Source: Planctomycetota bacterium (lineage in GTDB: Bacteria; Planctomycetota; Planctomycetia; Pirellulales; Pirellulaceae). From it: 64,000 nucleotides of DNA. The notes beneath the pieces are model-generated. The model saw only the letters and a list, made by a program, of their open reading frames with translations, was not told the DNA's origin and searched no databases. The stretch's first letter is position 1. Every line of letters begins with the position of its first letter. A program made the position numbers and the translations under genes. Below, in pieces: positions 8,269 to 25,029 of the stretch. The DNA lies in the NCBI GenBank assembly GCA_017303505.1, contig JAFLCP010000006.1, positions 1 through 64,000 of the forward strand, written 5' to 3'.

Positions 8269-11200
8269 ATGGCCATGTTCAAAAACGGCAACTCGGTTAG
8301 TGGCATTCGAAGTGTTGAGAAGAAGCGCGCTTTGTTGCGCAGGATTTTGCTGGAAACATTGGAGCGCCGCGAGTTGATGGCGGCAGACTCGGCAGGGGTG
8401 ATATTCGCTCCTGGTACCCCGAAAGATTATGCCGATACTTGGCTTGATTTCTACAAGCAAGGAACGTCAGGAACGGGCGAACCAGACGGGAATTCCGGCA
8501 ACTTTGATGCAGGTGGTGGCGGCCGTTGGAGCAACCCAGTGGGTGGTCCTTCTCCCAACATGGGTGATCCGTCCACCGTGACCTGGAGTATTGTTCCAGA
8601 CGGAACCTTGGTGGGCAGCAACCAAGACCCAAGTAACTTCATCGCGTTCATGGACGGCATTTACGGCGGTGGCGCCGGTCCAGTCAATACGCGTCCTTGG
8701 TTCCCACTCGTACAACGAGCTTACGATAACTGGGCAGCAGTTTCTGGTCTGACCTTTGTGTACGAATCGTTTGACGACGGTGCTCCACAAGGTGGATCAA
8801 ACCGTGGTATTCAAGGTGTTCGAGGTGACGTTCGCATAGGCGGTGCCGCCGTCGACGGTGACTTCGGTATCTTGGCTTACAACTATTTTCCAAGCAACGG
8901 CGGTAATTCTGGTTTCGACGGCGATATGGTCCTCGACACTAGCGACGCGTTTTACGGCTTAAACTCGGACGGCCCTTCAGGTGAAAATCGTGCACTGCTC
9001 AACGTATTGATGCACGAAGCAGGCCACGGTATTGGTCTAGGTCACGTCGACCCTGTCAACCAAACCAAATTGATGGAGCCATTCCTTTCGACCGCATTCT
9101 ATGGCCCACAGCATGACGACATCTTGGGTGGTCAAACGCTGTACGGCGATGATCGCGAAAGCAATGATGCTGCTACAACGGCCACTTCGTTGGGCACCAT
9201 CAGCAACGGCACACGCACTTTATCTTTGTTGTCGATGGACAACAACGCTGACCGCGATTTCTTCAGCTTTGATGCACCATCTTCGGGTCGCATCACCCTT
9301 TCGATCACGCCTGTCGGTTTTCAATATGACGTTGCTCCTACCGGCGGTTCAGTGGGTCCTGTTAACAGCTTGCTCTACAGTGACTTATCCTTCCAAGTTC
9401 TCGGGTCGGATGGACAAACCATCTTGGCTCAAGTGAACAATGGCGGCTTGGGCGTTACTGAAGTATTGACTGACTTCGATATCCGCACACCTGGACGATA
9501 CTACATCCGCGTCGATGGTACCACGGACGTCGTACAGTTGTACGACTTCTCGCTGGTGGCTACCGGTTTCCGATCCGCAAACGCAGACGTTCGAGCACCA
9601 CAATTGATCAGCGTTAATCCAAACGCTGGCTCGATCTTCAGCTTTGTCGACCCTAACCTCAACCGACTATCGGTATCGCCACGCGAACTCATCTTCCGAT
9701 TCGATGGTGCTCAGCAACTTGACCCAGCGACCCTGGGCTCGATCCGTATTACACGCAGCGGCGATGGTACCTTTGGAAATGGCAACGATATCGTCATCGA
9801 GCCAGGCTACCTTGGCTTTGGCGATACCGATCGTATTGTGATCGCTCGCTTCAAGGAAACATTGCCCAACGATTTGTATCGAATTGAGATCTTTGGATAT
9901 GACGATCCCGATCGCGGTGTCATCGGCCTACGCAACATCGACGGCATCTTGCTGGAACCACGCGTTCCTGGAACAGACCGCGATACCATCGACTTCCGCT
10001 TAGAACTCGGTGCGCAAATTGTTAGCGTCGTTCCACAACCCGTTCAGAAATCGGGCAACACTTGGACCCAACAAACAAACGTCATCGAAGTTTACTTCAA
10101 CGAAGATGATTTGTGGCCAGTTGCTGTAAGCTCCACCGGCTCACCTTCCGATCCTTCGATTGTGAACACTCAGTTCTATCAGTTGCACTTAACTGGTAAC
10201 ACCGTTCGCAATACAGATGATACCGTATTCAATCCATTATCGGTGACTTACGACCCAGCCCTCAACAAGGCTGTTCTGACATTCGACAGCTCGGCAACCG
10301 CCACTAATCCGTTCAACTACACCCTCTACAACGGTGCTGCCTATCGCTTGCGAATCGGAACCAGCGAAACGATTCCAACGGTTCCCTTCACTATCGATGC
10401 AGTGGCTACTGATCCAGCTGATACGTTTACCAACGCAACGGGCTTAGGAACATTCTCGGGCTTCCAGAGTTTGCTAGTCAACTCGGAAATTGTGAACCAA
10501 ACGAACTATAACCTCGACTTCCCAGGCGCACCGGACACCCCTGGCGTTCGTGAAGTCAATGCAACCCCCGGTGATACCGATTACACCAGCATCGATCATT
10601 TGCGAGCTGATGCACCTGATACCGATAGCACCATCAAGACCCAATACTACAACTTCCTCAAGACCCAGCCTTACGGTACAAGTTCGCAAGGAACGTTGTT
10701 GTTCAGCTCGATCACCTCGGTCCAAGAACAACGCATCCGCGAAGTCCTGTCGTTCTATGCCCAATACTTGGGTATCAAGTTTGTTGAAACAGATGCTCCG
10801 GTTGGTGCAGATGACTGGACCATCGTCGTTGGCGACTTGATTCCATTGGGAAGCAATAGCTCTGAAGGTGGCACACTGGGCTTAGCTGGCTTCCAGCCTC
10901 CAGGTGTTCGTGCTAACCACACCTTCGGCCGAAACACCGTTATTCTCGATCGTGCGGAAACTTGGAACGATGCCTTTGGCGCATCGGACAGCGTGAAGCC
11001 AAGTTTGTTCGTTGTTGCAATGCGAGAAATCGGCAACCTGCTTGGCCTTGGACAAATGTCCGAGTTGCCTCCAGGCACAATCATGGGTGGTAACTATACC
11101 AATGCCACCCTCGGTGGAGAACCATCGCTTCTTGGAAACAACCCAACCGAACCCGTATTCCCTGGCGATCAAGATATCATCGCCGGTCGTTATCTTCACC

Positions 11201-14200
11201 GACCAGATAGCCGCGATATTGACCTCTATCGCTTTACCATCGCCCCAGGACAAGCAGGACTTTTCACAGCTGAAATCGTCTCTGAGCGTTTGACTGACGG
11301 TAGCTTGCTGGATTCTTACTTAACTTTATATCGTCAGAAACCAGACGGAAGCCGCGAAGTCATCGCGGTTAACGACGATTACTTCAGCCAAGATTCCTTC
11401 TTGCAACTGGACCTTGCAGAAGGGACCTATTTCTTAGGCGTCAGTGCTTCGGGCAACGCGAACTATAATCCCGACATCAATGATTCCGGCATGAATGGAA
11501 CATCGGAAGGTGGCTATTCGCTACGAACCACGTTCCGTCCATTGGTCAATCGTCAAATTGTTGATGTTTCCAGCACTGCGTTGGATGGTGATCTCGATGG
11601 TGTTGCCGGCGGTGTTTTCAACTTCTGGTTCCGCGCCGCTCAACCATTGACCGATGCTTCGAGCACCGCTGTTCGAACCATCTTTGTTGATAAGTCACAT
11701 GTTCAGAACACATCGCCAGGTGCACCAGCCCTTGGTTCATTGGCGAACCCATATAACAAGATCTCGAGTGCACTATCGGTTGCCCGCCCTGGCGATATCG
11801 TTCGCATCTTGGGCAATGGTGGCTTGGATGGCAATGCGTTAACTCTTGCCGATTCGTATGCGTATGAAATCGGTACCGGTGGTCCATTGAACCAACCGCT
11901 CAGCGACGGCGCAACGATGAACGTTCCGCGCGGTGTCACTGTGATGATCGATGCTGGAGCTGTCTTCAAGTTGCGTGGCGCGAGCATCAACGTCGGTTCA
12001 ACGACCAGCAGTGTCGATCGCAGCCGTGGCAATTTGCAAATTCTTGGCAAACCTGGCCAAACTGTTCTCTTTACCAGCTATCAAGATGAAACGATTGGCG
12101 TTGATACCAACCCAATTACGACCACTGCGAAGCCAGGCGACTGGGGTGGAATCGAGTTCAAGAATGACATTGATCAAGCTGAAGGCCGTTTCAGTTTCGA
12201 ACGCGAAGGCATTTTCTTGGACTATGTCAATAACGCCGATATTCGTTACGGCGGTGGTCAAGTTTCGCTCGACTCGCAAACCCGCGTCATTGCCCCAATC
12301 CAAATGGCAAAGACCCGTCCAACTATCACCTTCAACACGATTACGTTGAGTGCTGATGCGGCGATGTCGGCCGATCCTGACAGCTTTGAAGAAACCACCT
12401 TCAACACTTCGCTCTACCAACTCAACGGCACCTTCACACCGGACTACACACGAGTTGGTCCGATGATTCGAGGTAACGCCCTGAGCAACAACTCGACCAA
12501 CGGCTTGTTCGTTCGTGTTGATACGTTGCCAGGCAACGCAACTACACAACAAACCGTGGCCGGTCGTTGGGACGATACCGATATTACTCACGTTATCGGT
12601 CAGAACGTGGTATTGGCAGGCACAGCTGGCGGTCCAAAACTAGAAAATGCTCGCCCAGCGATTAATTCTGTGACGCTAGCAGGTGTCCGTGTTACCGGTG
12701 GTACATTGGCTCCGCCAGTCGCTGGTACGGTGACCTACAATTATCGCCTCGTTTATGTTGATGCTGCTGGTGGTGAAACCTTAGCCAGCAATGCAACACA
12801 GAACGTCAACCTCACCTACACCACGCCATCGGCTACATTTAATGCCGTTCAATTGACACTGCCAACAGCCCCAGCGGGTTTTGTGGCTCGTCGCATTTAT
12901 CGCAGCCAATCCAACGGTGCTGGTCCCTATGTGTTGGTCACAGAACTCAATCGCAGCAGTTCGGTTTATGTCGACCGCGGCGGCTCTTTGGGCAACATTT
13001 TGGTTGACCGAACCGAATTGAATCGTCCTCGCTTGGACTCCAGCTTGGTCATCGATCCAGGCATCGTAATCAAGTCCGATGGTGCACGCATTGAAGCAGG
13101 CATCGGCACTACGTTGATCGCTGAAGGCCGTGATGGAATCCCAGTGATCTTCACCAGTCGTCGCGATGACCGTTACGGTGCATCGGGTACCTTTGATACC
13201 AACAATGACGGAGTTTCCGCACCAAACGCCGGTGATTGGGGTGGAATCTACTTCGGTCACTTGAGCAAAGGTTCTATCGATCACGCTTTGATCACGTTTG
13301 CGGGTGGTATCACTAGCATCGCTGGTAATTTTGCGGGCTTCAACGCGACGGAAATCCATCAAGCCGATGTTCGCATCAGCAACACCGTTTACGAACAAAA
13401 CTCCAGTGGCTTTGGTGCGCAATCGACATCAAACCGCGACGGTCATGGCTTCAACGAAGCAGCCGTCGTTTTTGTTCGCGGTGCTCAACCTGTGATCATC
13501 AACAACATTTTCCGCAACAATCCAACTCCGAATACACCTGTGATCAGCATCAACGCCAACGCGTTGACTTCGGACAGCGTATTGGATGCAGGTCGTCAAC
13601 GCGGCTTCGCAGATCGCTTGACCGAAGTTGTCGACAACCTAGGTCCAATGATCTATGGTAACTTTGTTGGCGGTAACTCGCTTAACGGTATGGACGTTCG
13701 CGGCCAAACCTTGACCACTTCAACGGTTTGGGATGATACCGATATCGTGCACGTTCTGCGCGACGAAATCATCGTGCCAGACTTGAATGTTTTAGGTGGC
13801 ATCCAACTCAAGAGCCGTCCCACGGAAAGCTTGGTTGTTAAATTATCTGGAAACGCTGGCTTCACCGCGACAGGTCGTCCGCTTGAAATCGATGACCGCA
13901 TCGGCGGTATCGTTCAAATCGTCGGCAGCCCTGGCTTCCCAGTTTACCTGACCTCCTTGCGGGATGACTCGATCGGTGCTGGCTTTGATCCAACCGGTTT
14001 GGCTCAAAACGACACCAACGGTGACGGACCAAGTGTAGGTAATGCAGGTGATTGGCGCAGCATTCGTCTCGACAAGTACAGTCACGACCGCAACGTTGAA
14101 ACAATCGTTGAACAAGAATCTCCACGTGTAACAGCCCCTGGAACCAACGCGGTTCCTTCCAACGCTCAACAATTGGGTGTATTGGCAGCTGCCGAAGATG

Positions 14201-17200
14201 AAGGTGACGAAAATCTTCGCTTAGGCTTTACCGTACAAGGCGTAATCAACGAGAAGTCGGACATCGACGTTTACAGCTTTGTCGGTAACGCTGGAACAGA
14301 AGTGTGGATCGATATCGATCGTACCACCAATGCCCTAGATACCGTTGTTGAACTGGTTAACGGCAATGGTGAAATCATTGCCCTCAGCGACAACAGCTAT
14401 GATGAAGCTTTGGGTAGCTATAGTATCTACAAGAACCCAGAATTGATTCCTCTACATCAGGCCAATAGCCTGCCACGAGATGCCTTCTTCCCCAAGAATG
14501 GCAACGGTACAACCACCGACTTCTATTCAACCAACCCATTTGACGCTGGCTTCCGCATCGTATTGCCTGGCGTTATCGGCGAGTTGAATACTTACTTCGT
14601 GCGTGTACGCAGCTCCAACATTGACTCCTTGAATCCAGCCGCTAACCGCGATGATCTTCAAGATCCATCCAAGTTGCGTGATGGTAAGACCACCGGCCGT
14701 TATCAATTGCAAGTTCGCTTGAGAGAGATGGACGAATGGGGTGGATCGTCGGTTCGCTATGCCGATATTCGCTATGCGACCACTGGCATCGAAGTATTGG
14801 GTATGCCTGCTCATTCGCCTCTGCTCGGTGAAGCTATCGAACCGCTACAAGCTGGTGTCGATACCAACAACAACATCGGCGGTGCTGTAGATCTAGGTAA
14901 CTTCTCTAACACCGACCGCGCTGCTTTGAGCATTGCGGGAGAATTGGCAACTGCCAACGACGTCGATTGGTATCGCTTCGATATCCAAATTGATTCGATC
15001 CAAGGCAGTGGTTTAGCTCAACACTTAGCAACGATTATCGACATCGACTATGCGGATGGTTTGGCTCGTCCAAACACTTCGTTCTGGTTGTATTACAACT
15101 CGCCAAACGGCGTTCAATTAGTGGCTGCTGGTACCGATTCGAACATTGCCGACGATCGCAGCGCTCCGCTGAACGGCTCCGATATGGATGACCTTTCTCG
15201 CGGTAGCGTTGGGTTCTTGGATGCCTACTTGGGATCGACGGAACTCACTGCTGGTACGTACTTCTTGGCGGTTACCAATAACTCGCAAATCCCAACCGAT
15301 TTGCGTCAATTCCAAGAAGGTAACCCATCGAACCCATTGGCTCGTTTGGAACCTGTTAACAGCATCAACAAGATCAGCGAAGACCGCTTCAATCAAGCAC
15401 CAAACACAACAGCTTTCGGTGCAACCCAAGTTGCCTTCAACGGCAATGCAAACGCAATCGACTACACCCTGGGCGATGTGGTTCTCTTTGTTTCACGCCC
15501 CAACGCAAGCGGTATCGTTTCGGACTTGTTAACGGTCGATTCGCTCACTGGTACTCCAGAAACATCGATTCGTACATTCCCATTCGTATTCGACATCGCA
15601 ATGCGACCAGACGGTAACCTTTATGGTTACGAAATCCCAACGACCGTTGCTTCGACCGACAACAACAACGGTAACTACATCCGAATTGATACGGCGGGCA
15701 ACGGCACCAACGTTGTAGCGGGTAACTCGGGTATCGATACCTTTACCCAAAACAATAACACACCTCCGGATGATGCGAAGGTTGCCGCTAACCCTGAAAC
15801 AGGTGCTGATGATGGTATCGGTATTCAATTCCGAGCCATCACCTACACCACAGGTTCCAGCCTCGGCCTCTACGGCGCAGGTAGCCGCGGTTACAACCAA
15901 GGCACCTGGAACGCTTTGGTCAACACTCCACAGAGTTCACGCAACTACATCTACCAGATGAACCCTGTGTCTGGTGCCGCGACCAGCTCGCCACAGACCG
16001 ACCGAATCAATGCCGGTCGAGCTGCCCCTGCAACCGCTCCAATTCAAGCGGCAGGTACCCAGATTCGCGAACGTGGGTGGGTCAATACGACCACCGATAT
16101 CAACCCACAAGCTTCCCGTGTGTTGTATACGTCGCCGGCTCGAACCAATCTCGCATCGGGCAACATCGTCGACGGTGATTTGATTACCGTAAACGGTCAA
16201 CGATATGAATTTGATGCAGGCACCACGGACCCAGCCATTCGTTTGAACATCACGCCACCTGGCTTGGTTCCAACCGATGGCCAAACCTTTACCCTAACGG
16301 TTGGTGCAACAACCTACACCTTCGAATTCGACACCGGTCGTGTCCTCGAAGTGACAGCAGGTGGTTCAGCGGCCTTGGAAGGTCAAACCATCGTCATTCG
16401 CGATGCGGCTAACGTTGACCATACGTTTGAATTCAGTGCAGACAACACCTTGGCAACTCCGGGTGCCATTCGAATCCCATATCGTGTCGATGATTCGTCG
16501 GACAACATTGTCACCAACATCACTAATGCCATCAACGGCGCTGGTTTAACCATCACCGCTGAAATCTTGGCCGGAACACAGCGCATCACCTTGAATGGCG
16601 ACATCGCTTTGACCGAAAACACCGCAGCAACACAAGTTGCCGCTGGTACCGAGTACGGTTTGCTCAACGCTGCCGCGACCTCAATTCTTGTCGAAGAAAC
16701 TTGGACTAATGCCCAAGCTGCTGCGGCGATTTTGGCGGTCCTCGATGGCACACATGCCAGCGGTGTAGTGGCCTCGCTATTAGGCAATGAGATTACCTTC
16801 AATGGTGCAGACCAAGGCTTCTTTGATACCACACCATGGTTCATCGTGGTATCGACGGGCGTAAGCGTTCAGCCGGGCAATATTCCAATTCCATTCAGCA
16901 TCGATGATTCGGCTGCTGAAATTGCTCAGTCTGTTTACACTTCGCTTTCCACAATCATCCCTGGCGTTACTTGGACGGGTAACTCTGTATCGTTGCCAAA
17001 CGGCTTCGCTTACGATACGACATTAACCCACTTCCAACGCTCGACATCAGGTCGTGTTGGTCCTTTGTCTCTCGACTTTGCCCCACTTCCATTAGCTATT
17101 GCTCAAGCACCTTATGTTCAAGGTGTGGCAATGGTTGGTTCGAGAATGTATGCCGTGAGCGAACGCGGTGACTTGTTCGAAGTCGGTACCTACAACGCGA

Positions 17201-20200
17201 TAACGGGTGTTGTCAGTGCATTTAACCCATCGTCCACCGCAAACCGTGGTGACTACATCGCTACAATTGCTGACCCTGACACGGGTGCCACGGTGACCTT
17301 CTCCGGGCTAACCGTAGGTCCTCGCAACGTAGAAGGTGGCCGATTCGATGACGTACTTTTCGGTATCGCCAGCAACGGTGATATCTACGCATTCGACGTT
17401 CGCGGTCGCTTGGTTCCTGCCTTTGCAAACGGCAAGTCCAAGATTAGCACCGGTATCGCCGGTGCAAACGGCTTGGCCTTCAGTAACCTCGACGTCAACC
17501 TCTGGCACGTAAGTGCAAACCGCAGCGGTGATGCAGGTCACGGTGTTGAATCCACATTCGACGGTTCGCGAACCGCCGATAGCGCTGCTGGTAACAGCCT
17601 CTACTTCGGTTTCGAAGATCCTAAGAAGGGCTCACCAGTACAAGTGGGTAACTGGGGCGGCGTTTGGGATCTAGGTAATACCGGCGTGGCATCGGACTAC
17701 GATGCAGGCCGCTATAACACCTATGAATTCCCAGGTGGTGCACAAGGTAGCATCGAAAGCAATCCTCTCGACCTTACGCAATACAGTGCCGAAGATAAGC
17801 CAACCTTGTATTTCAACTATCGCTTGGCCACGGAAAACGCCAATAGCGATTTGAACGACGCAACGGTAATGCGTGATTCGTTCCGCGTATTTGCTGCGGA
17901 CGATGATGGTGTATGGCATCTGTTGGCAACCAACAACTCGATGTTCGATAGCGAACGCGTTTTCAACTCGAACGACGAGAAAGACTACTTTATCAACGGT
18001 ACCGACCGTCAAGTTCAAGAACTTTACGATGTGAACGACACTAACAACGGCACCCGTCCTGCAGCAGCGAACAGCTGGCGTCAAGCTCGAATCGATCTCG
18101 GCGATTTCGCAGGCAAAGCGAATGTCCGTCTCCGCTTCGACTTCTCGACTGCCGGTTCGATGGCTAACCGTGTGTTGGGAACTGGCGGAGAAGAAATTCG
18201 TGTTGTAGAAGCCAATCGCTTGGCTGATGGCGACACCTTTACGATTCGACGCACTGTTGCTGGAAACCCTGTTGATTCGATTTTCGAATTCGAATTCGGA
18301 GCAACCTTCAACGCTCCAAGCGGTGCGAATATCCCTGAAGGTGCAACGTTTGATGTCGACGGAACCACATTCACTTTCACCGCTACCCCAGCATCGATTA
18401 CCGATATTCAAATCGGTAACAGCGATAACTCGGGAACTATGGCGGCACGAATTGCAGCTACCTTGGCAAACAATGGTTTCACGGTATCGGTTGATCCTGT
18501 GAACCTCACACGACTTTCGGTTCCCAATGCGACCACCGCCACTCAAGATGGTTCGCTTCCAGCCAACTTCATCGACGGTTTGCCAGGTGTTGCTCCAGGT
18601 AATCTGCCTGTCTTCGTAACCTACGATATGTCGGTTGCCCAAGTACGGGATGCGATTCGCGTCGCTCTGGCTCTTCAGTACAACGAACTGAGCGAAAAAT
18701 CGAACATCGACACCTTCCGTGTCGAAAACGAAATTCTGCGTCTCAACGAATTGCGAGTGGTTGATCCAGGTAAACTCGGATTGTCGCGACAAGGCGTATC
18801 GTCCTCGGACATCTTCGGTGGCTTTGGATCGAACCTGCGTGGCCAAAACAACCGCTTCGAAGGCGTCTACATCGACGACATCATCGTTGGTTTTGCAGAA
18901 CGTGGCGAAATCGTCACCAACGGTACGATTGGGGGAACGGGCTTCGCTTCGAACTTGCAGTACGAACCGCAAGCTATCACGGGTGAAGACAAGGTTGAAG
19001 TTGAAACTGGCAAGTACCAAGTCGAAATCCGTCGAGCTGCTTCGTTCGGCATCAATGGTGGCACTTCCTTGTCGCTTGACCCAATGGCGGGTGCACGTGC
19101 CTTCGACACCAACGAACGTTTGACTCAAGGCTTTGCATTGGTTGCTCGTCCTGGCTCGCAAATCGCTGACGGCGAGAGCTTCACCATCAGCGACGGTGTG
19201 AACACGGTTCGCTTCGAATTCAATGACACCACCATCAATGCTCCATTGCCAGGTGCTGGCTTTACTCAAGGTAATATTGAAGTTCCATTCACTCCAACCA
19301 TGACTACTGCCGAGATTGCCCGCGCTATTCGCGACGCAATCAACAGCTCGGATTCTCAAGCAGTTCTAAAGGTAATAGCTGGTTTATCCGACTCTCGAAA
19401 CGACAGTGCCTCAAGCAGTTCGATCCTAGTGAACCTCTATGGTGCGGCGGGTGCGGACAACAATGCAACCAACAACTTCGGCGACATCGCGTGGGTTGAA
19501 TTTGCCGTAGATAACTTCGATAAGGAAGATGCTGGCGACTCCAACCGCAAGCGTGATCAAGGCCAGATCATTCTGCACAGCAACATCGTTCGTGATAGCA
19601 GCTCTTTCGGTATCATCATTGATGCTGCCTCACGAGTCAGCACATTGACGCCACTGGCAGGTGCCTTGCCACATTCCGGACCAATCCGCAACTTACCTCA
19701 AGTAAACACGGAAGGTTGGGTGCCTGGTGTTGTTGCAGCCAACAACGTTTTGGCCTCGAACCGAGCGGGCGGCATCCTATTTAGTGGTGATTCACGCGTC
19801 GGTAACACCATGAATGCGTCGGTACCATTCGGGCGTTTGATCAACAACACGATCTACGGCATGAACGCTTCCGACATTGGTATCAGTGTGACCAACAACG
19901 CTAGCCCAACATTGCTCAACAATATCGTGGCTAATCTTGGAACGGGTATCCAAGTTGACGCTTCAAGCAACACGACCGTTGTCGGTTACACCTTATATCA
20001 AGGTAACCGCACCAACACCGTTGGTACCACTGCGGGTGCTCAAGCAATTCAGCTCACAGCTACCGATCCATTGTTTGTCAACGCAACAGGATACAACTTC
20101 TATCCAGCTCCGTTGTCCAAGGCCATCGACAGCTCGCTTGATGCTCTAGCAGACCGCCCTGAACTTGTATCAGTGCGAACCGCTGTTGGACTTCCAGTTT

Positions 20201-23200
20201 CGCCAATTTTGGCTCCATCGCGTGACATCACTGGTCAATTGCGTGTTGACGATCCTGCGGTCACAACACCATCCGGTCAAGGTGGAAACGTATTCAAGGA
20301 TCGCGGTGCTTATGATCGTGCCGACTTCGTCAGCCCGATTGCCCAGTTGCTCGTTGCTCAAGACAACGACAATGAAGGCCGAGATATCGACCCGAACTTG
20401 ACCTACGTGCAGTTGCTCGAAGGCACACTCGATCACTTCTCGATCTTGCTGTTGGAAGACAACGGAACAGGTCCAGACGTATCCACAGTTTCCAAGCTAT
20501 CCGTATCGATCTTGGAAGATGGCCGCTTGTTGCGAGAAGGCGTTGACTATACCTTCGGCTTCAACGTTACCAATCGAACCATCCGCTTGACTCCACTGTC
20601 AGGTATCTGGCGACCAGGTAGCGCCTACGAAATCACACTTAACAACCGTGATCGATTTGTGCTCTCCGCACAAGATGGCGCGTCGGTTGCTGATGGCCAA
20701 CAGTTCCGTATCGTTGATCAAAACGGTGTAAGTGCCGTTTATGAATACGAAAGTGGTTACAGCATCCAAGTACCACAAACACTCGCGATCACTGTTCCTG
20801 CAGTCGGTGCAGCCACCGGTGGTGTTATCGATGGCCAGAGCTTCAAGATTGGTTTCAACGGCACGGAAGTGACGTTCGAACTCGACTCGAACAACAATAC
20901 TGTCTTGGGCAACACCCCAATCAGCATTGCAGTCGGCGACACGGCGACTCAAGTTCGCGACAAGATCTTGGCAGTGCTCCTCGCAGACACTCTGTTGAAC
21001 TTGGCACCTAAGGCTGTTGGCACCGACTCGATCCACTTGGGTAGCTTGCCTCTGCATACTTTGGATATCAGCAACTCGTTGTTGATTCCATCGGGTGTTT
21101 CGGCGGGTGTTGAAGACGGTCAATCCTTCAGCTTCACTCAAGATGGCCAAACCAAGGTCTTCGAGTTCAACACGGTTGGTGACACCAACATTGGAACTGG
21201 AAACATTGCGATTCCATTCTTGCGAACCATGACCAATTCAGATATCGCTGCTGCGATTGTGAATATCATGACAGCACAGGCCTACGACTTGCCAATTTTG
21301 GCGGACCTCGGTAACGGTTTGGTACATATCGGTGGTCGCAGCGGTCATGTCTTGGATACTTCGGCATCCTTGCTACAAGGCCTCGGCACCCCAGGTGTAT
21401 CGAAGAGCCTAGAGCTCCTCGTTCCATCAATGGCCGGCCCTGGTGCTATTCAAGATGGTGAAACCTTCACCATTACACGTGGCACACAAACGATCACCTT
21501 TGAGTTCAACAGCAACGCTGCTACCACTCCTGGTAACACCGTGATTAACTTCTCACCAAGCAACACGGCTGCACAAGTCGCTACTGCGATCGCCAACGTG
21601 ATCCGCGGTACCACACTTGGTTTAACCGGTGCACAAGCAATCGGTGATGTGGTCAAACTCAACGAAGGTATTGGTTACACCATCAATACTGGAACATCGC
21701 GACTGGTACAGTCGGGGGTTTCCGGTGGAGCGATTCCGATCGTTTATACACCTTCGGCGAAGTTCACCGCTGATGACATGGCAGGTGTGATCATCAACGC
21801 GATCAACGGTACCGCTTTCGCTGCAGACGCTCGATCGCGAGGTAGCGAGACGATCTTCTTGACCGGTGCAAGCGTCGTCACCGATATCGACAACATCGAA
21901 ATTTTGGGCATCACCGACGTTGCCGGAAACTTCCTTGCTCCAAACCGAAGCAACCAAGAAACTCAGTTCACGATCTTGTTGCCAGGTGTAAACCTTGACT
22001 ACAGCGACTCGCCTGACCCAGGCTACAGCACTGTGCTAAACAGCAATGGTGCTCGTCACGTGGTTCTTGCAAATGATCCATTGCGATTGGGCAACGTCAT
22101 CACCACGGAAACCAATGGGGTTCCAACGGCCGATGCCTTAGGCGATGGTGGCGACGACGGTGTGACCTTCAGTGGTGTCTTTAACGAAAACACCAACCCT
22201 GTGGTCGTCACAATCGAAGCCTCTGAATCAGGCTTGATCGATGCCTGGGTTGACTGGAACCGCGACGGTGACTGGAACGATCCAGGTGAGCAGTTCATGA
22301 ACACCGTTCCCGTTCGTCCAGGCTTGAACACCTTCTCGCTGGTAACTCCTGTAGGGGCTTCGATCGGTACTACCTTCGCTCGCTTCCGAATCAGCAGTGC
22401 TGGTGGCCTCTCGCCAACTGGCGTGGCGATGGACGGTGAAGTTGAAGATTACTTGATCAACGTCTTGCCAGGAACACCACCGGTAGGAACAGCGGATCAG
22501 TACGCAGTTCTCGAAGGTGGCGTTCTAACAACCATTCAAACAACGGAACTAGATGCGTTACTAAATAACAACGGTGTGTTGGTCAACGACAATGCAGGTA
22601 CTCCTGCTGGTACGATGTCCGCACAACTTGTTACAGGTCCAAGTAACGGTTCATTGGTGCTCAATGCGAACGGTACGTTCACTTATACTCCAGCGACCGA
22701 TTACTTTGGTAGCGATTCCTTTGTCTATCGAATTGTTAATACCAACGGCTTGATTGCCAATCAAAACACAACGGTTAGCATCACGGTTGTTCCACAGAAT
22801 GACAATCCAACAGCGATCGATCTAACCTACAGTGCAGGCCAAGGTTCAACGGTTACCATTCCGCTGGCAGACCTGTTGCTCAATAGCACAGCGGGTCCAA
22901 CCAATGAATCCAACGCAGCTCCTGCAGGTCAAGGACAAATCGTGTCGATTCATCCGGTGACACCTGTTGGTTCGGCAACTCCAGCTGGCTCAACTGTTAG
23001 CTACAACTCGACTACGGGAATGGTCACCTTTACACCAAGTTCTGCTGCAATCACTCAAGGTACCTTTGAGTACACCTTGATCGATGACGGTAAGGATGGT
23101 GTTCAAGCGGATAACGTACAGACAGGTGAAGTCAATGCGTTCAAGACAGTAACACGCCTTGTCACCATCAACTTCATTCCAGTCAACGACCCACCAACGT

Positions 23201-25029
23201 TCACACCTGGACCATCGACTATTACCGTCGACGAGGACTCTGGCAGCTACTCGGCAGCCTGGGCTTCCAACATCCTGCCAGGCCCTGTAGGAGATCCTGG
23301 TGAGTCGGGACAAACCGTAACGTTTGAAGTGACCCCAACGACGAGCACAAGCTTGTTTGCAACCGCACCAGCGATCAGTTCCACCGGTGTGCTAACCTTT
23401 ATCCCAGCAGCGAATGCTAATGGGACGGTTATCCTCAGCGTGGTTGCTCGTGACAGCGGAAGCAATGTTGCTCCTGACCGTAACTATTCCGATCCGGTGC
23501 TCCTGACAATCACCATCAACTCGGTGAACGATGATCCTGTTGCATCCAACAGCTACAACTACACCATTACAGAAGATACTCTGTTGTCGGTGAATGCTCC
23601 TGGCTTGTTGACACTCGCAACGGACAACGACTTGCCCAATGATGTCTTGTCGGGAGTTGTAGCCAACACGACCAGCCTGCGTGGTGCACCAGTTGTCGTC
23701 AATGCCAACGGGTCATTCAGCTATGATCCTCGCAGCGTGGCTCAACTACAGGCGTTGTCCAATGGCCAATTCTTGTTGGACTCTTTCACCTATCAAGTGA
23801 GAGACGCCGCTGGAGCCCTCAGCAACGTGGCAACCGTTCAGATTCGTGTCGACGGTACGAACGATGCACCTGTCGCCGTTAACGATCCGGCATCTGGCCG
23901 CTTCGTAGTGGCTGCTGGATCGAACCGAGTCTTGACGATCTTGAGCAATGACACCGATGTTGATAATGCCATCAACCCAGCTTCCGTGTCGCTCGAAATC
24001 CTTCCAAGCTTTGGTACAGCAATTGTGAATTCCGATGGTACCGTAACCTATCGTCCGTCGACGGGCTTCCGCGGCAACGATTCGTTCACTTACCGAGTTC
24101 GCGACGTGTTGGGTGCTGTGTCCAACGAGGCAACCGTAAGTATTTTGGTCAACGACTCGCCGGTAGCGGTTGGCGACCAAGCCTTCACCAGCCGAAACTT
24201 GCCAGTAAACATCAACGTCCTTGCCAATGACAATGATCCTGACGGCACGCTAGATACCACAAGCGTTACCATTGTAACTGCTCCTTCAGCAGCTCAAGGT
24301 ACCGCACAAGTACTCTCGAACGGTCAGATCCGCTTCACACCGGCTGCAAGTTTCGTGGGCGAAGCAACCTTCTCCTACACGGTTCGTGATAACGTCGGAA
24401 CCACATCCAATGTGGCTCAAGTACGCGTCACGGTTATCTCCAGTGCATGGCAGAACCAAGGCAATCGTTACGACGTCAATGCTGATACTTATGTGACTGC
24501 AATCGATGCCTTGATTGTTATTAACACCATCAATCGTAACGGTGGTACCATCATCCTCGTGCCAGGTGTAAGTGCACCACCACCTCCATACTTGGATGTG
24601 GACGGCAACAACGTTGTCAATTCACAAGATGCATTGAATGTCATCAACGAGTTGAATCGACGATCGGGAATCGGTGGTGAAGGCGAAGGTTCGGCAGAGG
24701 GTGAAGGTAGCGGCGACTTCAGTATGGCCTACTTGGCCGGTGGCTTGGTCACACAAGCAACCACCCAGTATGTTGGAACCAACGCTATGGTGTCCGCCGT
24801 AGGTCAAGCCATCACCCGCGAAGTGCAAGCCGGTTTGGATTCGATGTTGTTCAATTCGGGTCGCCGAGTTGCAACCGTCCCAGCCTTCGGCAGCTACCCA
24901 ACGGGTCGACTGGAAGATCTGCTCGCCGACGATATGGACGATGTCTATACACTGCTAGCAGCTGACAATGAAGAAGATGATGAAGCAACCGATGTTCTCC
25001 TTTCGGATATCGATTCGCTGCTCAGCTAA
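8269..25029 (+). CDS. Giant secreted LEPR-XLL/dockerin surface protein, 5586 residues
   Basis: One intact 16.8-kb frame. Residues 28-41 (LLETLERRELMAAD) form the LEPR-XLL motif. A matrixin-type zinc site HEAGHGIGLGH (His249, Glu250, His253, His259) is followed by a PPC-like domain (297-430). A second matrixin-like domain ends in a degenerate site near 918-929, followed by another PPC-like domain (about 977-1090). A right-handed beta-helix with long internal repeats spans about 1138-1930, then PPC-like domains near 1961 and 2197 and propeller-like stretches. Ten copies of a DGxxF...FEF module lie between 2635 and 4500, a GEVED domain at 4650-4735, about six cadherin-like/Big_9-type repeats to 5390, a dockerin pair (5394-5468) and an acidic tail. 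AAGGG precedes the ATG. The family setting points to an extracellular or envelope-attached adhesin or matrix protein; peptidase activity is plausible but unproven. Confidence 0.9.
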   Translation: MAMFKNGNSVSGIRSVEKKRALLRRILLETLERRELMAADSAGVIFAPGTPKDYADTWLDFYKQGTSGTGEPDGNSGNFDAGGGGRWSNPVGGPSPNMGDPSTVTWSIVPDGTLVGSNQDPSNFIAFMDGIYGGGAGPVNTRPWFPLVQRAYDNWAAVSGLTFVYESFDDGAPQGGSNRGIQGVRGDVRIGGAAVDGDFGILAYNYFPSNGGNSGFDGDMVLDTSDAFYGLNSDGPSGENRALLNVLMHEAGHGIGLGHVDPVNQTKLMEPFLSTAFYGPQHDDILGGQTLYGDDRESNDAATTATSLGTISNGTRTLSLLSMDNNADRDFFSFDAPSSGRITLSITPVGFQYDVAPTGGSVGPVNSLLYSDLSFQVLGSDGQTILAQVNNGGLGVTEVLTDFDIRTPGRYYIRVDGTTDVVQLYDFSLVATGFRSANADVRAPQLISVNPNAGSIFSFVDPNLNRLSVSPRELIFRFDGAQQLDPATLGSIRITRSGDGTFGNGNDIVIEPGYLGFGDTDRIVIARFKETLPNDLYRIEIFGYDDPDRGVIGLRNIDGILLEPRVPGTDRDTIDFRLELGAQIVSVVPQPVQKSGNTWTQQTNVIEVYFNEDDLWPVAVSSTGSPSDPSIVNTQFYQLHLTGNTVRNTDDTVFNPLSVTYDPALNKAVLTFDSSATATNPFNYTLYNGAAYRLRIGTSETIPTVPFTIDAVATDPADTFTNATGLGTFSGFQSLLVNSEIVNQTNYNLDFPGAPDTPGVREVNATPGDTDYTSIDHLRADAPDTDSTIKTQYYNFLKTQPYGTSSQGTLLFSSITSVQEQRIREVLSFYAQYLGIKFVETDAPVGADDWTIVVGDLIPLGSNSSEGGTLGLAGFQPPGVRANHTFGRNTVILDRAETWNDAFGASDSVKPSLFVVAMREIGNLLGLGQMSELPPGTIMGGNYTNATLGGEPSLLGNNPTEPVFPGDQDIIAGRYLHRPDSRDIDLYRFTIAPGQAGLFTAEIVSERLTDGSLLDSYLTLYRQKPDGSREVIAVNDDYFSQDSFLQLDLAEGTYFLGVSASGNANYNPDINDSGMNGTSEGGYSLRTTFRPLVNRQIVDVSSTALDGDLDGVAGGVFNFWFRAAQPLTDASSTAVRTIFVDKSHVQNTSPGAPALGSLANPYNKISSALSVARPGDIVRILGNGGLDGNALTLADSYAYEIGTGGPLNQPLSDGATMNVPRGVTVMIDAGAVFKLRGASINVGSTTSSVDRSRGNLQILGKPGQTVLFTSYQDETIGVDTNPITTTAKPGDWGGIEFKNDIDQAEGRFSFEREGIFLDYVNNADIRYGGGQVSLDSQTRVIAPIQMAKTRPTITFNTITLSADAAMSADPDSFEETTFNTSLYQLNGTFTPDYTRVGPMIRGNALSNNSTNGLFVRVDTLPGNATTQQTVAGRWDDTDITHVIGQNVVLAGTAGGPKLENARPAINSVTLAGVRVTGGTLAPPVAGTVTYNYRLVYVDAAGGETLASNATQNVNLTYTTPSATFNAVQLTLPTAPAGFVARRIYRSQSNGAGPYVLVTELNRSSSVYVDRGGSLGNILVDRTELNRPRLDSSLVIDPGIVIKSDGARIEAGIGTTLIAEGRDGIPVIFTSRRDDRYGASGTFDTNNDGVSAPNAGDWGGIYFGHLSKGSIDHALITFAGGITSIAGNFAGFNATEIHQADVRISNTVYEQNSSGFGAQSTSNRDGHGFNEAAVVFVRGAQPVIINNIFRNNPTPNTPVISINANALTSDSVLDAGRQRGFADRLTEVVDNLGPMIYGNFVGGNSLNGMDVRGQTLTTSTVWDDTDIVHVLRDEIIVPDLNVLGGIQLKSRPTESLVVKLSGNAGFTATGRPLEIDDRIGGIVQIVGSPGFPVYLTSLRDDSIGAGFDPTGLAQNDTNGDGPSVGNAGDWRSIRLDKYSHDRNVETIVEQESPRVTAPGTNAVPSNAQQLGVLAAAEDEGDENLRLGFTVQGVINEKSDIDVYSFVGNAGTEVWIDIDRTTNALDTVVELVNGNGEIIALSDNSYDEALGSYSIYKNPELIPLHQANSLPRDAFFPKNGNGTTTDFYSTNPFDAGFRIVLPGVIGELNTYFVRVRSSNIDSLNPAANRDDLQDPSKLRDGKTTGRYQLQVRLREMDEWGGSSVRYADIRYATTGIEVLGMPAHSPLLGEAIEPLQAGVDTNNNIGGAVDLGNFSNTDRAALSIAGELATANDVDWYRFDIQIDSIQGSGLAQHLATIIDIDYADGLARPNTSFWLYYNSPNGVQLVAAGTDSNIADDRSAPLNGSDMDDLSRGSVGFLDAYLGSTELTAGTYFLAVTNNSQIPTDLRQFQEGNPSNPLARLEPVNSINKISEDRFNQAPNTTAFGATQVAFNGNANAIDYTLGDVVLFVSRPNASGIVSDLLTVDSLTGTPETSIRTFPFVFDIAMRPDGNLYGYEIPTTVASTDNNNGNYIRIDTAGNGTNVVAGNSGIDTFTQNNNTPPDDAKVAANPETGADDGIGIQFRAITYTTGSSLGLYGAGSRGYNQGTWNALVNTPQSSRNYIYQMNPVSGAATSSPQTDRINAGRAAPATAPIQAAGTQIRERGWVNTTTDINPQASRVLYTSPARTNLASGNIVDGDLITVNGQRYEFDAGTTDPAIRLNITPPGLVPTDGQTFTLTVGATTYTFEFDTGRVLEVTAGGSAALEGQTIVIRDAANVDHTFEFSADNTLATPGAIRIPYRVDDSSDNIVTNITNAINGAGLTITAEILAGTQRITLNGDIALTENTAATQVAAGTEYGLLNAAATSILVEETWTNAQAAAAILAVLDGTHASGVVASLLGNEITFNGADQGFFDTTPWFIVVSTGVSVQPGNIPIPFSIDDSAAEIAQSVYTSLSTIIPGVTWTGNSVSLPNGFAYDTTLTHFQRSTSGRVGPLSLDFAPLPLAIAQAPYVQGVAMVGSRMYAVSERGDLFEVGTYNAITGVVSAFNPSSTANRGDYIATIADPDTGATVTFSGLTVGPRNVEGGRFDDVLFGIASNGDIYAFDVRGRLVPAFANGKSKISTGIAGANGLAFSNLDVNLWHVSANRSGDAGHGVESTFDGSRTADSAAGNSLYFGFEDPKKGSPVQVGNWGGVWDLGNTGVASDYDAGRYNTYEFPGGAQGSIESNPLDLTQYSAEDKPTLYFNYRLATENANSDLNDATVMRDSFRVFAADDDGVWHLLATNNSMFDSERVFNSNDEKDYFINGTDRQVQELYDVNDTNNGTRPAAANSWRQARIDLGDFAGKANVRLRFDFSTAGSMANRVLGTGGEEIRVVEANRLADGDTFTIRRTVAGNPVDSIFEFEFGATFNAPSGANIPEGATFDVDGTTFTFTATPASITDIQIGNSDNSGTMAARIAATLANNGFTVSVDPVNLTRLSVPNATTATQDGSLPANFIDGLPGVAPGNLPVFVTYDMSVAQVRDAIRVALALQYNELSEKSNIDTFRVENEILRLNELRVVDPGKLGLSRQGVSSSDIFGGFGSNLRGQNNRFEGVYIDDIIVGFAERGEIVTNGTIGGTGFASNLQYEPQAITGEDKVEVETGKYQVEIRRAASFGINGGTSLSLDPMAGARAFDTNERLTQGFALVARPGSQIADGESFTISDGVNTVRFEFNDTTINAPLPGAGFTQGNIEVPFTPTMTTAEIARAIRDAINSSDSQAVLKVIAGLSDSRNDSASSSSILVNLYGAAGADNNATNNFGDIAWVEFAVDNFDKEDAGDSNRKRDQGQIILHSNIVRDSSSFGIIIDAASRVSTLTPLAGALPHSGPIRNLPQVNTEGWVPGVVAANNVLASNRAGGILFSGDSRVGNTMNASVPFGRLINNTIYGMNASDIGISVTNNASPTLLNNIVANLGTGIQVDASSNTTVVGYTLYQGNRTNTVGTTAGAQAIQLTATDPLFVNATGYNFYPAPLSKAIDSSLDALADRPELVSVRTAVGLPVSPILAPSRDITGQLRVDDPAVTTPSGQGGNVFKDRGAYDRADFVSPIAQLLVAQDNDNEGRDIDPNLTYVQLLEGTLDHFSILLLEDNGTGPDVSTVSKLSVSILEDGRLLREGVDYTFGFNVTNRTIRLTPLSGIWRPGSAYEITLNNRDRFVLSAQDGASVADGQQFRIVDQNGVSAVYEYESGYSIQVPQTLAITVPAVGAATGGVIDGQSFKIGFNGTEVTFELDSNNNTVLGNTPISIAVGDTATQVRDKILAVLLADTLLNLAPKAVGTDSIHLGSLPLHTLDISNSLLIPSGVSAGVEDGQSFSFTQDGQTKVFEFNTVGDTNIGTGNIAIPFLRTMTNSDIAAAIVNIMTAQAYDLPILADLGNGLVHIGGRSGHVLDTSASLLQGLGTPGVSKSLELLVPSMAGPGAIQDGETFTITRGTQTITFEFNSNAATTPGNTVINFSPSNTAAQVATAIANVIRGTTLGLTGAQAIGDVVKLNEGIGYTINTGTSRLVQSGVSGGAIPIVYTPSAKFTADDMAGVIINAINGTAFAADARSRGSETIFLTGASVVTDIDNIEILGITDVAGNFLAPNRSNQETQFTILLPGVNLDYSDSPDPGYSTVLNSNGARHVVLANDPLRLGNVITTETNGVPTADALGDGGDDGVTFSGVFNENTNPVVVTIEASESGLIDAWVDWNRDGDWNDPGEQFMNTVPVRPGLNTFSLVTPVGASIGTTFARFRISSAGGLSPTGVAMDGEVEDYLINVLPGTPPVGTADQYAVLEGGVLTTIQTTELDALLNNNGVLVNDNAGTPAGTMSAQLVTGPSNGSLVLNANGTFTYTPATDYFGSDSFVYRIVNTNGLIANQNTTVSITVVPQNDNPTAIDLTYSAGQGSTVTIPLADLLLNSTAGPTNESNAAPAGQGQIVSIHPVTPVGSATPAGSTVSYNSTTGMVTFTPSSAAITQGTFEYTLIDDGKDGVQADNVQTGEVNAFKTVTRLVTINFIPVNDPPTFTPGPSTITVDEDSGSYSAAWASNILPGPVGDPGESGQTVTFEVTPTTSTSLFATAPAISSTGVLTFIPAANANGTVILSVVARDSGSNVAPDRNYSDPVLLTITINSVNDDPVASNSYNYTITEDTLLSVNAPGLLTLATDNDLPNDVLSGVVANTTSLRGAPVVVNANGSFSYDPRSVAQLQALSNGQFLLDSFTYQVRDAAGALSNVATVQIRVDGTNDAPVAVNDPASGRFVVAAGSNRVLTILSNDTDVDNAINPASVSLEILPSFGTAIVNSDGTVTYRPSTGFRGNDSFTYRVRDVLGAVSNEATVSILVNDSPVAVGDQAFTSRNLPVNINVLANDNDPDGTLDTTSVTIVTAPSAAQGTAQVLSNGQIRFTPAASFVGEATFSYTVRDNVGTTSNVAQVRVTVISSAWQNQGNRYDVNADTYVTAIDALIVINTINRNGGTIILVPGVSAPPPPYLDVDGNNVVNSQDALNVINELNRRSGIGGEGEGSAEGEGSGDFSMAYLAGGLVTQATTQYVGTNAMVSAVGQAITREVQAGLDSMLFNSGRRVATVPAFGSYPTGRLEDLLADDMDDVYTLLAADNEEDDEATDVLLSDIDSLLS
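8980..9050 (+). other. Intact matrixin-like zinc site within the giant gene
   Basis: Codons for residues 249-259 read HEAGHGIGLGH, the full HExxHxxGxxH metzincin signature, about 220 residues after the N-terminal motif. Downstream TKLMEPFLST supplies a methionine where matrixins have a Met-turn. All three zinc-binding histidines and the catalytic glutamate are present, so this copy could be active. Confidence 0.85.
10870..11100 (+). other. Degenerate second matrixin-like domain within the giant gene
   Basis: Residues 918-929 read MREIGNLLGLGQ, aligning with HExxHxxGxxH but with Arg919, Asn923 and Gln929 in place of the three histidines; Glu920 is kept. The following PPGTIMGG resembles a Met-turn. 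The lead-in (RIREVLSFYAQYLGIKFVET) also matches matrixin helix A. With no zinc ligands this copy should be catalytically dead and may bind or scaffold. Confidence 0.75.
11680..14060 (+). repeat. Beta-helix region with three long internal repeats
   Basis: The protein segment opens with IFVDKSHVQN...GSLANPYNKISSAL, a typical entry to right-handed parallel beta-helices. A block of the form (I/V)xGxxGxPVxFTSxxDDxxG...GDWGGIxF recurs starting at residues 1254, 1614 and 1881. A companion block (GPMIxGN...NG...WDDTDIxHV) recurs at 1398 and 1795. Repeat spacing is about 270-400 residues. This suggests growth of the gene by internal duplication. Confidence 0.75.
16165..21960 (+). repeat. Ten-copy DGxxF...FEF protein module in the giant gene
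   Basis: A short module recurs with its first acidic residue at 2635, 2670, 2704, 3320, 3357, 3634, 4142, 4188, 4283 and 4396. The first half is (D/E)Gxx(F/I)x(I/L), a variable turn, then (F/Y)EF(D/N/E). In complete copies a second half follows 20-30 residues later: GNxxIPFxxxxTxxxIAxAIxxAI. The last three copies are spaced 95 and 113 residues apart and share an ending of the form LD-S-LL-SGV. Several early copies are half-modules. I do not recognise it as a named domain. Confidence 0.8.
24448..24672 (+). other. Dockerin-type calcium-binding repeat pair of the giant protein
   Basis: Residues 5394-5468 contain DVNADTYVTAIDALIVINTIN and DVDGNNVVNSQDALNVINELN, two EF-hand-like dockerin half-repeats separated by a Pro-rich spacer. 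The smaller upstream surface protein ends with the same arrangement, opening with a matching WQN. Here a further tail of about 118 residues follows, ending in many Asp and Glu residues. Confidence 0.85.

Follow-up and report, generated by a model that had tools for sequence, protein, structure and literature searches.

A Putative Pseudo-Matrixin Domain beside an Intact Matrixin Domain in a Giant Planctomycete Protein

Introduction

Why would a single secreted protein carry two domains of one protease family, the first with a complete zinc site and the second with none of its zinc ligands? The question is raised by a stretch of 64,000 nucleotides from a Planctomycetota bacterium of the Pirellulaceae (GCA_017303505.1, contig JAFLCP010000006.1, positions 1 to 64,000 of the forward strand), hereafter the window, in which one open reading frame (ORF) of 5586 aa encodes both domains, here named D1 (intact) and D2 (degenerate). 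The answer that we favour, with a probability of roughly two in three, is that D2 is a pseudo-matrixin kept for its fold, as a scaffold or binding part and not as a protease, while the cutting is left to D1.

Results and Discussion

Architecture of the Giant Protein

The ORF encodes a giant surface or secreted protein of planctomycete type, whose N-terminal part contains two matrixin domains. This protein combines a length above 5000 aa with adhesin-type repeats, the two features by which giant surface proteins are recognized, and its Big_9, Cadherin_5, Cadherin_4, GEVED and dockerin domains all score above their cut-offs. The named records among its relatives belong to Planctomycetota, in many cases with the label Pirellulaceae, Rhodopirellula, Rubripirellula or Stieleria; giant genes are already known from planctomycetes (PMC5177795, PMC7717043). 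The features are as follows (positions in the window, with residues of the protein as aa).

8269..25029, + strand: giant secreted protein, 5586 aa, ORF uninterrupted, with Big_9/Cadherin repeats, GEVED and dockerin domains
8338..8388, + strand: putative planctomycete extracellular signal motif LERRELMAA, aa 24–40 (17.5 bits against Pfam Planc_extracel, which has a cut-off of 25.5)
8521..9168, + strand: D1, intact matrixin domain, aa 85–300 (Peptidase_M10, E 5.5e-17; MMP-16, E 2.3e-9)
9013..9045, + strand: zinc site of D1, HEAGHGIGLGH, aa 249–259
9073..9075, + strand: Met-turn methionine of D1, M269 (KLMEP)
9250..9519, + strand: PPC domain after D1, aa 328–417 (Pfam PPC, E 4.7e-8)
10546..11298, + strand: stretch used as query in the D2 searches, aa 760–1010
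10618..11208, + strand: metzincin fold of D2, about aa 784–980 (predicted structure compared with MMPs)
11023..11055, + strand: pseudo-active site of D2, REIGNLLGLGQ, aa 919–929 (R919, E920, N923, Q929)
11083..11085, + strand: Met-turn methionine of D2, M939 (TIMGG)
11194..11238, + strand: junction between D2 and the domain after it, HRPDSRDIDLYRF, aa 976–990, strongly conserved whether a copy is live or dead
22240..22461, + strand: GEVED domain, aa 4658–4731 (Pfam)
24469..24657, + strand: C-terminal dockerin type I domain, aa 5401–5463 (E 1.1e-9)

State and Fold of the Two Domains

When aa 1–1200 were scanned, D1 reached 62.5 bits against the Peptidase_M10 profile (cut-off 24), with its best stretch at aa 148–293, and it has both hallmarks of matrixins, the HExxHxxGxxH motif (here HEAGHGIGLGH) and the Met-turn (KLMEP). 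D2 follows after about 460 residues made of beta-domains and is 29% identical to D1 when the two are aligned. None of its three zinc-binding histidines is left, the codons CGA, AAC and CAA encoding R919, N923 and Q929, and the glutamate (GAA, E920) and the Met-turn methionine (ATG, M939, in TIMGG) are retained. A preliminary description of the window, made from its letters alone, had reported an intact and a degenerate matrixin-like domain in one giant protein, the second with Arg, Asn and Gln at the zinc positions and the catalytic Glu kept; the codons and the single 5586-aa ORF bear out both statements.

On its own, D2 matches Peptidase_M10 at E 4.3e-4 and 20.6 bits, under the gathering score of 24. 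An AlphaFold model of D2 computed from a 54-row alignment (pLDDT 79.5, pTM 0.74) superimposes on MMP-11 (1hv5_B) with a Z-score of 16.3 over 153 residues (2.6 Å, 22% identity), and a Foldseek search with this model returned 187 chains at E ≤0.001, the 50 top rows being MMPs without exception. In a search against solved structures, a profile of 54 D2 sequences also led to an MMP, MMP-1 (E 4e-8). Considering the confident predicted fold and the Z-score against MMP-11, the likeness of D2 to MMPs is not due to chance. The metzincin fold that the preliminary description wanted checked over residues 770–960 is thus predicted, with its extent corrected to about aa 784–980 (residues 25–221 of the model, the part aligned with MMP-11). 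A larger model of aa 41–1130, containing D1 and D2, did not place them confidently relative to each other (pTM 0.43) and left most of D1 below a pLDDT of 70; a structure search with it matched the D2 part only.

The predicted fold of D2 is therefore like that of the matrixins (Pfam PF00413), such as MMP-11, with which D1 shares the profile, the zinc site and the Met-turn; the differences are that D2 lacks the three zinc histidines and falls under the Pfam gathering score, and that D1 and D2 lie in a 5586-aa chain. D1, having everything that a zinc endopeptidase requires, would probably be the sole protease of this chain, and D2, with the same predicted fold and its zinc site gone, would do no catalysis.

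Distribution and Phylogeny of the D2 Family

A search of 199 genomes of this bacterial family with the window's D2 gave matches at E 1e-6 in 159 (the window's own genome counted). For sampling, named genome contigs were scanned with a pattern taken from the junction past the Met-turn, i.e., outside the active site, which yielded 80 loci, of which 79 were usable (49 with a complete site and 30 with an incomplete one), a fragment (L074) being excluded from every count. These 79 loci, 60 places in 19 complete genomes, the window, its paralogue and five further loci (L006, L008, L027, L032 and L034) together made up 146 D2 rows. The five came from the 30 best loci of the family-genome search, the others of which were omitted as apparent copies of named loci or sampled genomes, judged by appearance and not individually. 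A D2 was called “live” when it had H, E and H plus H or D as third ligand. By this definition, 69 rows are live and 77 dead; among the latter, 51 have no ligand, 24 have one and two have two, and the Glu is kept in 11.

On a quick tree of the 146 rows, for which the motif columns were left out, the live/dead label changes at least 15 times, and well supported branches force at least seven of these changes; with shuffled labels, about 49 changes are needed. A count allowing losses only, with a midpoint root, also gives 15. Three clades are wholly dead: B (24 rows, support 98), C (20 rows, support 96) and D (nine rows, support 100). Loss of the zinc site is recurrent in the D2 family, and the three dead groups are old paralogues.

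Constraint on Copies without a Zinc Site

Among 18 pairs of closely related dead D2s, dN/dS ranges from 0.010 to 0.124, compared with 0.013 to 0.105 for live pairs (13 computable of 14), the pairs having been picked by hand from rows near each other in the tree, with many dS values above 1 and with rows shared between pairs, so that they are not independent. Judged from these substitution patterns, the dead D2s elsewhere in the family are maintained and not decaying, under strong purifying selection like that on live copies. As a separate observation, six rows of one genus (g7: L149, L150, L152, L203–L205) are heavily changed dead D2s (e.g., TLVMSALGVGS and GMVKDLIGVSD), and their dN/dS is still 0.05–0.12.

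Column by column, the conservation of dead copies follows that of live ones (r 0.75, 331 columns), and the columns most lost in dead D2s are the three ligands and the Glu, followed by parts of the cleft and of the loop preceding it. By region, the mean relative entropy is 2.07 in live and 2.17 in dead copies over the first helix region (aa 785–850), 2.23 and 1.76 over the cleft part (aa 851–975), and 2.31 and 2.56 at the junction (aa 976–1000). Within the pseudo-site helix, the mean pairwise identity is 0.67 in group C (three long-branch rows left out), which has a consensus of its own, 0.68 in live copies and 0.49 in group B.

Under the pseudo-matrixin reading, the D2 family would thus be a family of head domains, present in most genomes of the bacterial family. 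Selection would preserve their fold and the junction to the next domain, and the zinc site, repeatedly lost, would be dispensable. The job of D2 would likely be mechanical or adhesive, either as a rigid module between head and stalk or as a binding face, and in the window's lineage a catalytic copy would have taken the step that its paralogues took long ago. For the window's D2 itself, whose best homologue is only 58% identical, constraint would follow by analogy with the dead D2s elsewhere.

Loss of the Site in the Window's Lineage

The window's D2 falls in a clade of six rows (support 99), together with four live rows and one dead row (L037). These nearest homologues are 50–58% identical to it, and four of the five keep the complete site HEIGHLLGLGH, from which it follows that the site was lost in the window's lineage after the domain had arisen, and that D2 fits the definition of a pseudoenzyme, i.e., a homologue of a putatively active enzyme that has lost catalytic residues. 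Two features tell against the pseudo-matrixin reading: the end branch of the window's row is the longest in the clade (0.44), although that row is also the deepest, and the window's D2 lacks some residues common to live and dead copies, such as the H at aa 972, replaced by A.

At face value, such a distribution might point to recent drift, as the preliminary description had supposed for the case that close homologues retain the histidines. The three substitutions are indeed not conserved among the close homologues; drift, however, is not implied, as D2 shows no speed-up. In a relative-rate count over the D2 core without the motif, the window's side accumulated 11–17 changes versus 15–18 on the side of a live clade member (L036), with no significant excess for the window's D2 over the latter against any of five outgroups, and in pair tables the window's D2 and the live D2 of L036 resemble the other tandem proteins to about the same degree. 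Hence, either the site was lost very recently or the domain is still held by its fold.

The first of these possibilities corresponds to the strongest rival explanation, according to which D1 sufficed and D2 is on its way out without a present function. It agrees with the complete sites of the four relatives, with the intact D1 and with a genome devoid of any live D2 (a state shared with G011, G096 and G200), and a very recent loss would likewise leave no excess of change. We nevertheless consider it unlikely, if to be taken seriously, given that the window's D2 has no excess of change against the five outgroups, that the ORF is intact and the fold of D2 confidently predicted, and that dead D2s elsewhere are strongly constrained.

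The other dead member of the clade, L037 (PL25a_bin.111), is a close homologue with both sites inactivated (D1, QQTGHGMGLSH; D2, GRIGSLLGLGH). A single loss shared by L037 and the window was considered and set aside: the best tree from a careful reconstruction with 30 rows places them apart (95/90), even though an AU test does not reject their joint clade (p 0.055). The substituted residues of their D2s also differ. Two separate losses are therefore favoured by these sequences, though not shown.

D2 Copies per Genome

Counting copies down to E 1e-5, 26 genomes hold 81 D2 copies, with exactly one live D2 in 22 genomes, none in four (those of the window, G011, G096 and G200) and two in no genome. 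Shuffling the live labels among genomes gives P 5e-5 for this pattern, a value that mainly restates the presence of one live orthologue per genome. D2 copies are often neighbours, about 16–25 kb apart.

In the window's genome, a different contig has the second D2, in a frame of 5048 aa that lacks D1; it reads QAVGVLLGLGT and the methionine of its Met-turn is absent. This paralogous giant protein (L035, contig C1, 4653–19001, + strand) has a D2 only, the site of which is more changed than in the window, and belongs to the dead group C. G011 and G200 have three D2 copies each, all dead. Among the genomes of the sister clade, G195, G199, G201 and G202 combine a live A-type copy with two dead ones and G200 has three dead ones, while the window's genome has two dead ones. 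The cases are too few to conclude that a loss of group B led to the dead A copy in the window's genome.

A broader reading starts from these sets. These planctomycetes might deploy a standing set of matrixin-headed giant surface proteins, composed of one live and two or three dead heads, in which the dead heads have turned to binding and act in trans with the single live head. The pseudo-site of group C, conserved with a consensus of its own, resembles what would be expected of a new binding site; as a whole, the idea is speculative and we regard it as improbable.

D1 and D2 in the Same Chain

An upstream D1 was sought in 140 of the 145 other D2 rows and found in 15, or 16 chains with the window. 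Fourteen of these tandem chains are live/live, one is dead/dead (L037) and one, that of the window, is live/dead. Upstream of the dead D2s scanned other than the window's, D1 is absent in 73 of 74, an upper bound because a few loci are truncated on that side. Many short frames carry a D1 by itself, and D1 reaches E 1e-20 in 71 of 199 family genomes. In two loci (L048 and L052, at about aa 81–130 of their frames), a D1 relic of about 40 residues precedes a live D2, and as only such short relics are kept there, D1 seems to be removed by deletion. D1 comes and goes; D2 stays, losing its site by substitution. A regular association of a dead D2 with a live D1 in one chain was among the candidates and was rejected, since chains with D1 are mostly live/live (14 of 16).

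These counts weigh on the suggestion, made in the preliminary description, that the dead copy binds substrate for the active one or inhibits it. That D1 and D2 share one chain speaks for such regulation in cis, and there is a precedent in carboxypeptidase D, in which, according to PMC11266112, an inactive domain stands beside two active ones. Two live sites in 14 of 16 tandem chains, dead D2s that lack an upstream D1 in 73 of 74 other cases, and the lack of a confident arrangement of D1 and D2 (pTM 0.43) nevertheless make it very improbable, and the live/dead pair does not hold up as a design, the window's chain being its sole instance among the 16. Weaker still, and scarcely credible, is the idea that D2 remains an enzyme through another metal or a mechanism based on Glu920: D2 does retain the Glu and the Met-turn methionine, but the Glu is kept in just 11 of the 77 dead rows, and Arg, Asn and Gln do not form a metal set known from metzincins.

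Comparison with Known Systems

The pseudo-matrixin reading of D2 has counterparts among other peptidases. Carboxypeptidase D likewise combines active and inactive versions of a peptidase domain within its chain (PMC11266112); it differs in belonging to another peptidase family (M14), and the planctomycete live/dead pair in cis concerns one in 16 tandem chains. The CLCA zincins are described in PMC3650047 as a zincin-like family that includes bacterial proteins and whose HExxH motif frequently carries substitutions, and changes of His to Arg or Lys are said there to be commoner than expected in zincins. The window's D2 indeed has Arg at the first His, although the CLCA proteins are a different zincin family, and the word stem “planctomycet” is absent from the main text of that paper. 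Among the literature matches listed, judged by titles and abstract openings, none dealt with inactive matrixins in planctomycetes.

Closer to the present proteins are three giants of Stieleria varia with consecutive locus tags (Pla52n_17480, _17490 and _17500; 6271, 7630 and 6858 aa) given in Table 2 of PMC7717043, of which the one of 6858 aa, and no other, is annotated as Matrixin and has giant neighbours. The spacing of D2 genes, often about 16–25 kb, is reminiscent of this arrangement; the passages of PMC7717043 concerned with these giants do not deal with active sites or with inactivated copies.

With at least 15 live/dead changes on one tree, and old dead clades beside live ones, often both in one genome, the D2 family amounts to a natural experiment on the purpose for which a protease fold persists after cutting ends. 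It also opens the heads of giant planctomycete proteins to a first experimental test; the functions of these proteins are mostly guessed from the domains they contain.

Other Metalloprotease-Like Genes

Two further genes of this genome deserve mention. The upstream neighbour of the giant gene (5264–7852, + strand) encodes a protein of 862 aa that also bears a dockerin domain and has a metalloprotease-like HELCHILGFG segment; it scores 39.3 bits against NF038122, under the cut-off of 80. Elsewhere in the genome (L003, C13:78979–79272), a stand-alone short matrixin with the site HEIGHALGLDH lies in a 329-aa frame that starts with a signal of planctomycete type.
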